Assembly (NCBI GenBank): GCA_021730225.1
Contig: CP072532.1
Span: forward strand, 83,230 to 147,229
Direction of reading: 5' to 3'
Length of the DNA stretch: 64,000 nucleotides
Source: Candidatus Vesicomyidisocius sp. Agig_15_S12
GTDB lineage: Bacteria > Pseudomonadota > Gammaproteobacteria > PS1 > Pseudothioglobaceae
A program made the translations under genes and the position numbers. This document shows positions 42,038-46,099 of the stretch, one piece after another (positions within the stretch are counted from its first letter, which is position 1; each line of letters opens with the position of its first letter). The notes beneath the pieces are model-generated. The model saw nothing but the letters and a program-made list of their open reading frames with translations, searched no databases and was not told where the DNA came from.

Positions 42038-43057
42038 TTAACAACCAGTTGATTCACGGACAAAATCATCTAATTTTTGATGGGCTATCCCACTATTTAA
42101 TATTTTTAACGCTTTACTAACACCTTCTTGTAGTGAGTTTGCAAGCCCACACACATAAATAGCTGCGCCTGAATTAAGTGCAATAATGTTTTTAGCTGCG
42201 CCATCTTTGCCATCAAGAGCTTGTTGAATTAGTATTAATGACTCATCTGCATTGTTAGCTTTAATATCATCTAAATTACCTAGTGGTAAACTAAAATCGG
42301 TAGGACCGATAGTATCAGTCTTGATTTTACCATTCTTTAATTCAGCTATAAATGTATCATCTGCAATTGAAATCTCATCTAAGCCATCTTTAGAATGCAC
42401 AACTATAATATGTCTAGAACCTAAATTTTTTAAAACATGAGCAATAGGTTCAACTAAAGATTGAGTATAGACTCCAATTATTTGATTAGGCACTTTAGCA
42501 GGATTAGTTAGTGGTCCTACAATATTAAAAATGGTTCTAATAGCAAGGTCTTTGCGCACATCAGTGATATATTTTATTGCATGGTGATGAAAAGGTGCAA
42601 ACATAAATCCGATGCCAATTTTTTCAATACATTTGCTAATTCTTTCAATATTCATATTAAGATTAACGCCTGCTGCCTTTAATACGTCAGCACTACCCGA
42701 TTTTGAAGAAACGCTACTATTACCATGTTTGGCAACTGATCCGCCAGCAGCTGCTACAACAAAGGCACATGCGGTTGAAATATTAAACAAACCTAGTCCA
42801 TCACCACCTGTACCACAAGTATCTACCAGGTGTTTGGTATTCTTAATTGTAACACTTTTGGTAAAAGAACGAATGATTTTGGTAACAGCAGTAATTTCAT
42901 CAATACTTTCACCTTTTGTTGCAAGTCCAACTAAGAAACCACCAGTTTGTGCATCGGTAGTTTTACCAGTTATGATGTCACTTATTACTTTTTGCATCTC
43001 ATTTTGATTAAGATCTTGTTTTTTAACAATTTGTTTAATAGCTTGTTGTATGTTCAT
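42038..43057 (-). CDS. trpD: Anthranilate phosphoribosyltransferase
   Basis: A 339-residue enzyme of tryptophan synthesis that joins anthranilate and PRPP. The PRPP-binding motif CGTGGDG and the following KHGNSSVSSKSGSADVLKAAG are intact, as are IRTIFNIVGPLTNP and the metal-binding DGLDEIS. No other trp gene is in the window. The start lies 23 bases inside the end of pepP. Confidence 0.95.
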   Translation of the reverse strand: MNIQQAIKQIVKKQDLNQNEMQKVISDIITGKTTDAQTGGFLVGLATKGESIDEITAVTKIIRSFTKSVTIKNTKHLVDTCGTGGDGLGLFNISTACAFVVAAAGGSVAKHGNSSVSSKSGSADVLKAAGVNLNMNIERISKCIEKIGIGFMFAPFHHHAIKYITDVRKDLAIRTIFNIVGPLTNPAKVPNQIIGVYTQSLVEPIAHVLKNLGSRHIIVVHSKDGLDEISIADDTFIAELKNGKIKTDTIGPTDFSLPLGNLDDIKANNADESLILIQQALDGKDGAAKNIIALNSGAAIYVCGLANSLQEGVSKALKILNSGIAHQKLDDFVRESTGC

Positions 43058-44279
43058 AGTATTGTCGGCTCATAAGTAATTCAATATCGTTGATTTCTTT
43101 AGCGAGAGATTTAGTTAGTACTACATTTCCTGATGTTGTTATTAAGATAATGTCTTCAATTCTAATGCCAATGTTGTGATAAATTGGATTAATTTTATCA
43201 TTTTTACGGATATAAATACCAGGTTCGATAGTGGTTATCATGCCAGCTACAAATTTTTTGTGATGACCATTTTTTTTGTATTGACCTACATCATGTACAT
43301 CAAGACCAAGCCAGTGTCCTGTGCTATGCATATAAAACTGCGATAAGTTGTCACCTATTTGCAATATACCAAGACCAATTAAACCTTTTTTAATTGTATT
43401 AGTTGCAACTTTATGAGGTTTATTGATTTTTATCCCAGGTTTGATGGTATTAATAGCATCAATTTGAGCATTAAGAACAATTTGATAAATTTGTTTTTGT
43501 GCAGAAGAAAATTGACCATCAACTGGGAAAGTTCGTGTGATGTCTGAGGCGTAGCAGTCAATTTCAGCACCAGCGTCAATCAAAATTAAATCACCTTTAT
43601 TGAGTTTTTTGTTATTTTCTATATAGTGTAGTGAACAAGAGTTTACCCCTCCTGCAACAATGGGAGTATAGGCATGTTGAGCATTATTTTTGGTAAAAAA
43701 TCCGTCAAAAATACTTTGAATTTCAAATTCAAACATATCTGGTTTGATAGTTTGCATCGCTATTTGGTGTGCTTTGATTGAGATATTGGCTGCTTTTTGC
43801 ATGGTGCTTATTTCAAGTTTGTCCTTAATAAGACGCATCTCATGTAAAGTTGGGACGAATGATTTGAGTTTATAGCTCAAGAGTAAGTGCTCAATATCAT
43901 GATCTATTTGACAATTTGTTGTATCAAAGTAAACTTGATTATTCAATATTAATTGAGGTATTTTTTCTTTTAACAAATCTATAGAAAAAGCATTATCTGA
44001 TTTTAAAATATTAGATGCATCATTAATTCCTAGGCGTTTTTCACCCCAGATTTCACATGTTTTGTTTTTAGGACGTAAAAATATTGTGTAGTTGTTTCTA
44101 GAAAAAATTGCTAGCGCTTTAGGCTCTTGTAAGCCAGTTAGATAGTAAAAATCACTATGCACTCGGAATGGGTAATTGACATCACCAGAACGATTCTGTT
44201 CAGAATTGCTACTTATAATAACTACTGCATTGTTATCCAGCTGGTTTAGCAACGACAGTCTTCTTTTTTGAAAGATCAT
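43035..44279 (-). CDS. pepP: Xaa-Pro aminopeptidase
   Basis: A 414-residue pita-bread metallopeptidase of the AMPM family. The N-terminal domain (1-150) has the PepP pattern DFYYLTGLQEP. The C-terminal catalytic domain supplies the metal ligands: DAGAEIDCYASDITRTFP, HSTGHWLGLDVHDVG, TIEPGIYI and the final RIEDIIL. It is slightly short of the usual 440. It removes N-terminal residues before proline. Its upstream region carries the long palindrome at 44327-44413. Confidence 0.95.
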   Translation of the reverse strand: MIFQKRRLSLLNQLDNNAVVIISSNSEQNRSGDVNYPFRVHSDFYYLTGLQEPKALAIFSRNNYTIFLRPKNKTCEIWGEKRLGINDASNILKSDNAFSIDLLKEKIPQLILNNQVYFDTTNCQIDHDIEHLLLSYKLKSFVPTLHEMRLIKDKLEISTMQKAANISIKAHQIAMQTIKPDMFEFEIQSIFDGFFTKNNAQHAYTPIVAGGVNSCSLHYIENNKKLNKGDLILIDAGAEIDCYASDITRTFPVDGQFSSAQKQIYQIVLNAQIDAINTIKPGIKINKPHKVATNTIKKGLIGLGILQIGDNLSQFYMHSTGHWLGLDVHDVGQYKKNGHHKKFVAGMITTIEPGIYIRKNDKINPIYHNIGIRIEDIILITTSGNVVLTKSLAKEINDIELLMSRQYYEHTTSY

Positions 44280-44326: not shown

Positions 44327-44413
44327 AATACCATGAAACATGCTCATCAAATACCAATTTCTTCTTAAATTTTAAGAAGAAATTGGTATTTGATGAGCAT
44401 GTTTCATGGTATT
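44327..44413. repeat. 43-bp perfect inverted repeat with a 1-base centre
   Basis: The left arm 44327-44369 (starting AATACCATGAAACATGCTCA) is the exact reverse complement of the right arm 44371-44413, with a single T between. The right arm is the first recognisable stretch of the rsmE pseudogene (frame LVFDEHVSWY), so the left arm is an inverted copy of rsmE coding sequence. As RNA it would fold into a hairpin of roughly 40 bp. It sits 47 bases upstream of the pepP start. Confidence 0.97.
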
Positions 44414-45055
44414 TGGCAAAAGTATTGTGATTTTTACAATGGCAAGAGATTACTTTATTTAGTGGTTATGGTAGTAATTATTTAAGCGATGATTGCACGA
44501 GTCAAAAACTATTGTGATGTTAAAATACACATGTGCACTTACAATAATTCATAGTTTCAGTTAAACATTGCTTTGGTTTAAGGCATTGCCAAAGGTGAAA
44601 AAATGGATTTTTTAACACAAAAATCGGTTGAATTAGGAGTGAATAGAATAATATCTATTTTTTAGTGAGTGCTACGTGATTCATCATCCAAGATGAGAAA
44701 TTACAGAAGCGTATAGAGTGAGCATTGGCAAAAGATTGTCATTGGTACTTGTGAACAATCAGGCAGATCTGTGATGCCAGGTTTGTCATTAGCTATGAAT
44801 TTTGAGGATTTTGTTAATACCAAGTTTTGTAATGGGGTTGTATTGCATTATCGTGCCGAATATTCATTATTAGAAATGAATAAGGCTAATTAAGCAACTA
44901 TTATTATCGGATTGGAAAGGTGACTGAGTTACCAATAAATAGTAAATGCAGGTAAATAAGAAGCTCAAAACTTGTTATTAGACTCGAGAATATTAAGGGC
45001 TGAAACCGCTTCGTTGGTAACCATTGCTAATATGTAGTTATTATGGGGTGGTTAA
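44371..45055 (+). pseudogene. rsmE: Decayed rsmE (16S rRNA m3U1498 methyltransferase)
   Basis: Three plus-strand segments align in order to RsmE: LVFDEHVSWYLAKVL and EITLFSGYGSNYLS near the start; GIAKGEKMDFLTQKSVELGV in the middle; HWQKIVIGTCEQSGRSVMPG, MNFEDFV and the SAM-site end SRILRAETASLVTIANM. At least six in-frame stops (several readable as CAA/CAG to TAA/TAG) and some frameshifts break it. The normal 5' end is missing: sequence stops at the palindrome centre. It ends against the tail of the dsrS-like gene. Confidence 0.92.
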
Positions 45056-46099
45056 TATATTTAAGGCTTTTTGAATAGGTCTTAATACATTTATAAGTTT
45101 TTTACGAATAGCAGAACCTGTTAAACGATGTGCTGAAATGGTGCTAACGACTAAACGTTCACTTACACCTGCTAATAACATTCTAGCAAAGAGCTTTTCT
45201 CTTTCATCTTTAATATCATAAATCATAATATTAGCTTAGTTAGTAATATCGACAATAGATTCTTTACAAGTTATTGAGGGATGATATAGATATTGTCCGA
45301 GTACATCTAGTGTACGATACAAAATAGTTTCTTGATTGATTTTTTTTAAAATATTAATTGTGGTTTTTAATAGTAATTGTGTTTGTTTATCTGAAATAAG
45401 TTGTAAATCTTTATGTCTGAAATTAAATGATATTATGTTAATATCAATATTAATCTCAAAGTAAATATTTTTAAGATTAATACGCTCAATAAAACCAACT
45501 AAAAATGCTGTTTTTTTTTGACCTTGTTCCCACAGTTTAGCTTTTTCTTTTTTGTTGATTAGGTCTTTCTGTAATATCAAATTAGTGGTATCGATTAGTT
45601 GTTCTATATCATGTATAAAAGGTAATAATTCTAGTAAATATTTGGCGATATTTTTACCAATGTTGGTGTTAATAACAAAATCTTTAGTGAGTAATAAACG
45701 TCCAATTTCAGCTTGATTAGCAGTATTAGTAGCGCACCACCAAGTTAGTTTGAGTAAATCTTTATCAAATTTGATTGCATTTGATACTGCTATAACAGCT
45801 TCAACCTCGCCCAGTTTGAGTAGTAATGAAAGGTTTGATAATGTCGCTTGTCCTATTTTTGACCAGGGCTTTAAATATGATAGATATTTTTCCTTTATTG
45901 TTCCCATAACTTGATTGATAAGAAGTTTTTTAACTTCTTTGATATAGGCGTCACTATTACTTGTTAGGCTTAAATCAATCACTTGTTCTTTAAATTGTGT
46001 GTTAAGTCCAACAACTATTAGTTTATAAGTATCAATACGAATTGCGATCGAAGTCTTAATAAGAACATTTAGCTTAAGAATATCTTCAGTGTTTAGCAT
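45041..46099 (-). pseudogene. dsrS: DsrS-like sulfur-oxidation protein, interrupted by an in-frame TAA
   Basis: The first 287 codons (ATG at 46099, stop TAA at 45236-45238) and a further frame of 61 codons to 45041 are in the same reading frame, separated by that single stop and three codons. Joined they give about 352 residues. Segments such as RIDTYKLIVVGLN, WWCATNTANQAEIGRLL, KTAFLVGFIERI and the basic C-terminus GSAIRKKLINVLRP recall DsrS, a cytoplasmic protein encoded with dsr genes in purple sulfur bacteria. I recall that similarity only moderately well. Either a truncated protein is made, or the gene is a young pseudogene. Confidence 0.6.

Follow-up and report, generated by a model that had tools for sequence, protein, structure and literature searches.

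A long perfect palindrome at the start of an rsmE pseudogene, probably made by quasipalindrome-associated template switching

Introduction

Three known systems come closest to the palindrome described here. In Escherichia coli, quasipalindrome mutations convert an imperfect repeat into a perfect one in a single cluster of linked changes, by intra-strand fold-back or a strand switch during replication (PMC7202029, PMC6357072), and a strand bias has been reported for them, as the citation of Rosche et al. 1997 in PMC8794818 indicates. In RNA stems, short template-switch mutations can create or repair the pairing; they follow a four-point switch model, in which one event gives a perfect stem, and are detected by comparison with relatives or ancestors (PMC8794818). 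In the mitochondria of Nematomorpha, long and perfect palindromes lie in the coding sequences of AT-rich, reduced genomes, and template switching has been discussed as their possible origin (PMC6649704).

Here we describe a palindrome that has traits in common with each of them, found at the start of a pseudogene, rsmE, in Candidatus Vesicomyidisocius sp. Agig_15_S12. It differs from the E. coli mutations in being a natural, evolutionary case that was not selected with a reporter, in having both arms partly rewritten, and in its length (arms of 43 bp, versus 18 bp in the E. coli reporter quasipalindrome). Unlike the RNA-stem switches, it lies at the start of a pseudogene instead of an RNA gene, and nothing points to a function as RNA. 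The Nematomorpha palindromes are many, with 110 of at least 15 bp in four genomes, and occupy functional genes, whereas here a pseudogene holds the long palindrome and all others are short. The class of mutation is already known, and among its natural cases the one in rsmE stands out by its unusual length. Read in this way, it offers a clean natural example, with its ancestral state, of a long perfect hairpin arising by replication error, without selection or inserted DNA. It also cautions against taking such hairpins for regulatory elements.

The DNA analysed (the window, 64,000 nucleotides) comprises bases 83230–147229 of a single-contig genome of 1,033,397 bases (CP072532.1), here called G000. 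Coordinates without a prefix refer to the window. Those same-genus relatives that have names belong to Vesicomyosocius and Ruthia, symbionts of vesicomyid clams.

Results and discussion

The palindrome and its locus

A repeat search placed the perfect palindrome at 44327–44413 (87 nt), with the left arm at 44327–44369 (+), a single central nucleotide at 44370 and the right arm at 44371–44413 (+). The two 43-nt arms are 100% complementary, in agreement with an earlier note on this DNA, which had described a near-perfect 87-nt palindrome around one central base. The arm is the longest perfect one in the 1.03-Mb genome, the next being 26, 24 and 22 bp (spacer up to 20). The longest perfect arms reached 27 bp in the close relatives G001 (complete genome) and G006 (first 720 kb surveyed), also with spacers up to 20, and 12 bp in one order-2 Markov surrogate genome. 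A dispersed repeat or mobile element (REP/MITE-like) was ruled out: the palindrome is single-copy in G000, matching itself alone on its own strand and in reverse.

Folded as single-stranded DNA, the palindrome reached −45.7 kcal/mol (z = −17.5), and the homologous segments in relatives −5.4 to −8.7 kcal/mol, near shuffle level. On the pepP strand, the predicted RNA fold was −64.3 kcal/mol (z = −16.8), so that the very strong RNA hairpin proposed in the earlier note stands as a prediction.

The pepP(−)/rsmE(+) locus is syntenic across the same-genus genomes. The divergent neighbour pepP, encoding a Xaa-Pro aminopeptidase (PF00557 and PF05195), is intact at 43035–44279 (−). From the pepP ATG it is 48 bp upstream to the start of the palindrome. 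The 47 bp in between could hold a promoter, so that the hairpin would belong to the pepP leader, where the earlier note placed it, only if transcription starts beyond it. The remainder of rsmE lies at 44504–45034 (+), where a TIGR00046 match carries nine stops in the matched frame, consistent with the heavy decay noted before. In G001, G004 and G009 the matched frame is free of stops, the G001 protein matching PF04452 and PF20260; the gene is broken or lost in the others, including G000. Adjoining the pseudogene is a minus-strand ORF of 287 aa (45236–46099), with no Pfam match.

Comparison with related genomes

The palindrome was absent from all aligned same-genus relatives at the syntenic pepP–rsmE loci. 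Alignment to these relatives showed that it is built from the 5′ sequence of rsmE. The segment measures 87 nt in the window and 88 nt in the relatives, including G001, whose intact rsmE has an ordinary 5′ end. Nothing was therefore inserted, and the old sequence was overwritten in place.

The ancestral parts are distributed over both arms. The outer left segment (44327–44342, +), which reads AATACCATGAAACATG in the window, is identical to the relatives’ consensus and includes the original rsmE ATG (44333–44335, +). The inner right part, AAGAAATTGGTATTTGATGAGCATG, agrees with the relatives except for two substitutions. The inner left segment (44343–44370, +) and the outer right part (about 44397–44410) differ from the relatives, whose outer right end is another sequence, and agree with the other arm in reverse complement. 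A plain duplication of the right arm therefore does not explain the left one; each arm served in part as a source for the other.

An inverted duplication by insertion, with the right arm as original rsmE and the left arm as an added copy displacing the 5′ end, would account for the inner left arm matching the reverse complement of the right arm. It is contradicted by the alignment and we regard it as extremely improbable: the segment did not grow, the outer left arm, ATG included, is ancestral, and it is the outer right arm that was rewritten. Two statements of the earlier note were not sustained by these results, namely that the left arm is an inverted duplicate and that the true 5′ end of rsmE is gone. 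The comparison with related symbionts that it had proposed upheld an rsmE-derived and recent palindrome, and gave a nearly length-preserving overwrite in place of the inverted-duplicate origin.

The consensus of the small-genome clade has a weak quasipalindrome at this site (z = 3.2; G001 3.3, G006 3.5, G005 2.4), and none was found at the homologous segment in G002, G004 and G009. The motif CATG occurs near the first switch point of the reconstruction given below, so that some inverted homology, if weak, was in place there before the event. The earlier note had held that the same palindrome with diverged arms in a species with intact rsmE would speak against a recent duplication. This was found weakly, as the poor quasipalindrome of G001, and not in the more distant G004 and G009. 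We do not count it against a template switch, because such a switch needs that substrate.

Reconstruction of the proposed template switch

We parsed the segment by dynamic programming against a consensus ancestor, allowing forward copying, copying of the ancestor’s reverse complement and copying of the descendant’s own reverse complement. The ancestor was the consensus of three relatives of the small-genome clade and not an inferred node; the minus-strand loci L006 and L010 were left out of it. The parse consisted of a forward piece of 16 nt without mismatches (the outer left segment), a reverse piece of 28 nt with three mismatches (the inner left segment), a self-templated fold-back piece of 40 nt without mismatches in the right arm (44371–44410, +), and then forward sequence again. 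It was identical at switch costs from 2 to 6.

A history by switching needed three switches and three substitutions, versus 17–21 substitutions plus indels for a linear one. Its cost was 9–15 (switch costs 2–4), and that of forward-only histories 20–25. With a parse model chosen after the alignment had been seen, the saving over forward-only at switch cost 3 was 11 units, versus 0 in all 150 simulated random histories (each with 19 substitutions and one deletion).

An ordinary build-up of compensating point substitutions, in a stem that was already present, could draw on the weak quasipalindrome of the clade ancestor and on the fast change of rsmE as a pseudogene. The 87 nt, however, hold 17–19 aligned differences (20–22%), all ending in perfect pairing, against 12–14% in the rest of the pseudogene. 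Position-preserving nulls gave 0–2 palindrome gains genome-wide, and no arms of at least 16 bp in the G001-to-G000 runs. The probability of this explanation is close to nil.

At one and the same site, then, an imperfect inverted repeat in the relatives corresponds to a perfect one in G000, as in quasipalindrome template switches; the clustered changes are explained by copying of the partner arm’s reverse complement, with three residual mismatches, and arm sequence was replaced without net insertion (87 vs 88 nt). We conclude that a quasipalindrome-associated template-switch mutation very probably made the palindrome, as a by-product of replication to which no function is assigned. Template switching, one of the causes considered in the earlier note, is the best one after the comparison with relatives and the parse. 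The comparison supports it well as the cause; the order of the switches, the strand and any role of ExoVII are inferences.

In the recent past of the lineage, the nascent strand would have left its template inside the weak quasipalindrome at the 5′ end of the rsmE pseudogene. In the proposed order of steps, it would first have copied the ancestral left end up to ...CATGAAACATG. It would then have used the opposite arm as template for ~28 nt, writing the reverse complement of the right side. Next, it may have folded back and copied its own new sequence outwards for ~40 nt, by which the right outer end was rewritten. Realignment at ATTTGG would have returned it to normal copying. An identical product would result from two ordinary quasipalindrome corrections in succession. 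No intermediate sequence was found among the genomes compared, so that one event and two are indistinguishable. A point against the proposed path is the 1-nt centre: for a self-templated turn there, the AT-rich middle would have to open into a larger loop.

The plus-strand reading of the parse was cheaper than the minus-strand one. Cumulative GC skew has its minimum near 0/1033 kb and its maximum near 461 kb, which mark the origin and the terminus, respectively. Together, the better-scoring plus strand and the skew would place the event in leading-strand synthesis, a placement in line with what Rosche et al. 1997 (cited in PMC8794818) state in their title.

Age of the event

The absence of mismatches among the 43 pairs limits the divergence since the event to at most about 0.035 substitutions per site (95%), provided that the arms were not re-homogenised. 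The rest of the rsmE pseudogene differs by 12% from G001 and by 14% from G006. Each arm contains the three residual substitutions of the copied segment, which must therefore have arisen before the event or with it. These shared lineage substitutions, with no mismatch between the arms, place the copying late. The event is recent relative to the decay of rsmE, one of the possibilities that the earlier note had drawn from the identity of the arms.

The retained rsmE frame reads MKHAHQIPISS from the ATG and then stops at codon 12, an in-frame TAA at the palindrome centre (44366–44368, +). The late date of the event suggests that this TAA was not the first inactivating lesion of rsmE.

Search for a function

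A hairpin in the pepP leader could be a terminator, an attenuator or a small RNA kept perfect by selection, and both its predicted stability and its position, 48 bp upstream of an intact pepP, would suit such a role. The terminator scan found no intrinsic terminator (G + C-rich stem followed by a T run) at the palindrome. The promoter scan likewise gave nothing there, promoter-like counts being equal to those of shuffles. All Rfam matches were below gathering scores, the best with 62.7 bits against a gathering score of 90, and nearly all were generic microRNA-precursor hairpins. The palindrome is also missing from all aligned relatives that keep pepP, and palindrome gains at unrelated places in the genome point to mutation and not to local selection. 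Neither conservation nor terminator-like signals nor RNA families thus support a function, and a selected hairpin is very improbable.

Palindrome gains across the genome

When the G000 substitutions were projected onto G001, 11 perfect palindromes had gained at least three pairs (arms of at least 13 bp, spacer of at most 10), versus 0–2 in 14 nulls that kept the mutated positions and the substitution spectrum. Some of the gains were inside large ORFs, for example in the Omp85/BamA-type gene described below. In the territory shared with G006, lineage-specific gains numbered 11 in G000 and 4 in G001, a difference that was not significant; the branch lengths from identities were similar (about 0.028 and 0.024, respectively).

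These gains also bear on a sequencing or assembly artefact, that is, fold-back (hairpin) chimeric reads or a hairpin mis-resolved in the consensus. Long hairpins are hard to sequence, the verdict here comes from the assembled sequence, and the genome collection, which omits the window’s own record, gave no other assembly of this species. Single-read fold-back chimeras usually truncate or duplicate sequence. The arms here, however, are a mosaic copied both ways, with the length nearly preserved and both flanks intact; the chimeras would have had to win the consensus, and shorter events of the same type occur genome-wide, also within intact ORFs. An artefact is improbable, and we retain template switching as the origin of the palindrome.

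Repair genes

MutS gave no match in any of the 12 same-genus genomes, in a search whose control matched in 11 of 14 genomes. For SbcC and SbcD nothing was over the cut-off in these 12 genomes. Weak SbcD matches (20–26 bits) to a 235-aa ORF were far below the cut-off and were therefore not counted as SbcD; the ORF is probably another metallophosphatase. No RecA match was obtained in G000, G001, G005 and G006, and G003 has a remnant, in agreement with its published loss in clade I symbionts (PMC3202245). ExoI was present in all 12 genomes, and a RecB-like protein was found, below cut-off, in all of them. XseA, the large subunit of exonuclease VII (ExoVII), was over the cut-off in 11 of the 12 genomes, and G000 alone had no match. 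Relative to G001, ~1.85 kb with most of the gene is missing at G000:242083-242468 (L044:2083-2468).

The lineage has thus lost several enzymes thought to limit template-switch accidents. Laranjo et al. 2017 (listed in PMC6357072) state in their title that ExoI aborts template switching. The dead gene and the absence of both MutS and SbcCD probably helped the palindrome to persist, and ExoVII loss possibly did so too. ExoVII reportedly acts together with ExoI in E. coli, according to the Lovett group. A broader and more tentative idea is that this symbiont lineage acts in nature as a template-switch mutator: after MutS, SbcCD and RecA had gone, the additional loss of ExoVII (xseA) would have raised the rate at which quasipalindromes become perfect palindromes throughout the genome, including in genes such as bamA, and the rsmE palindrome would be its extreme product. 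We consider this possible, though rather unlikely. The link between xseA loss and the rsmE palindrome is a correlation in one genome and only suggestive. A point against template switching as the cause is that G000 still encodes ExoI, an opponent of such switching in E. coli, and the RecB-like protein.

The genus amounts to a natural experiment on ExoVII, with xseA lacking in one of 12 genomes, in pieces in one (G009) and whole in ten, and genome comparison could test its role in limiting template switching over evolutionary time. The xseA fragments of G009 lie at G009:C1:842520-843766 and could offer a second, independent case on which to test the ExoVII idea.

Other palindromes in G000

A perfect palindrome with 17-bp arms lies at G000:436194-436231 (L089:16194-16231), in an intact gene for a 781-aa protein of the Omp85/BamA type. 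One of its arms has five to six differences from both relatives and the other has one, a pattern like template-switch rewriting. Lineage-specific perfect palindromes with changes mostly in one arm were also seen at G000:700397-700432 (L103:397-432) and G000:112621-112658 (L037:12621-12658). At G000:427104-427158 and its counterparts G001:543361-543418 and G006:542293-542350 there are terminator-like stems common to the relatives, with perfect arms of 24–27 bp that reach far past the terminator core. Selection on terminator stems may account for some of the excess of palindrome gains between genes.
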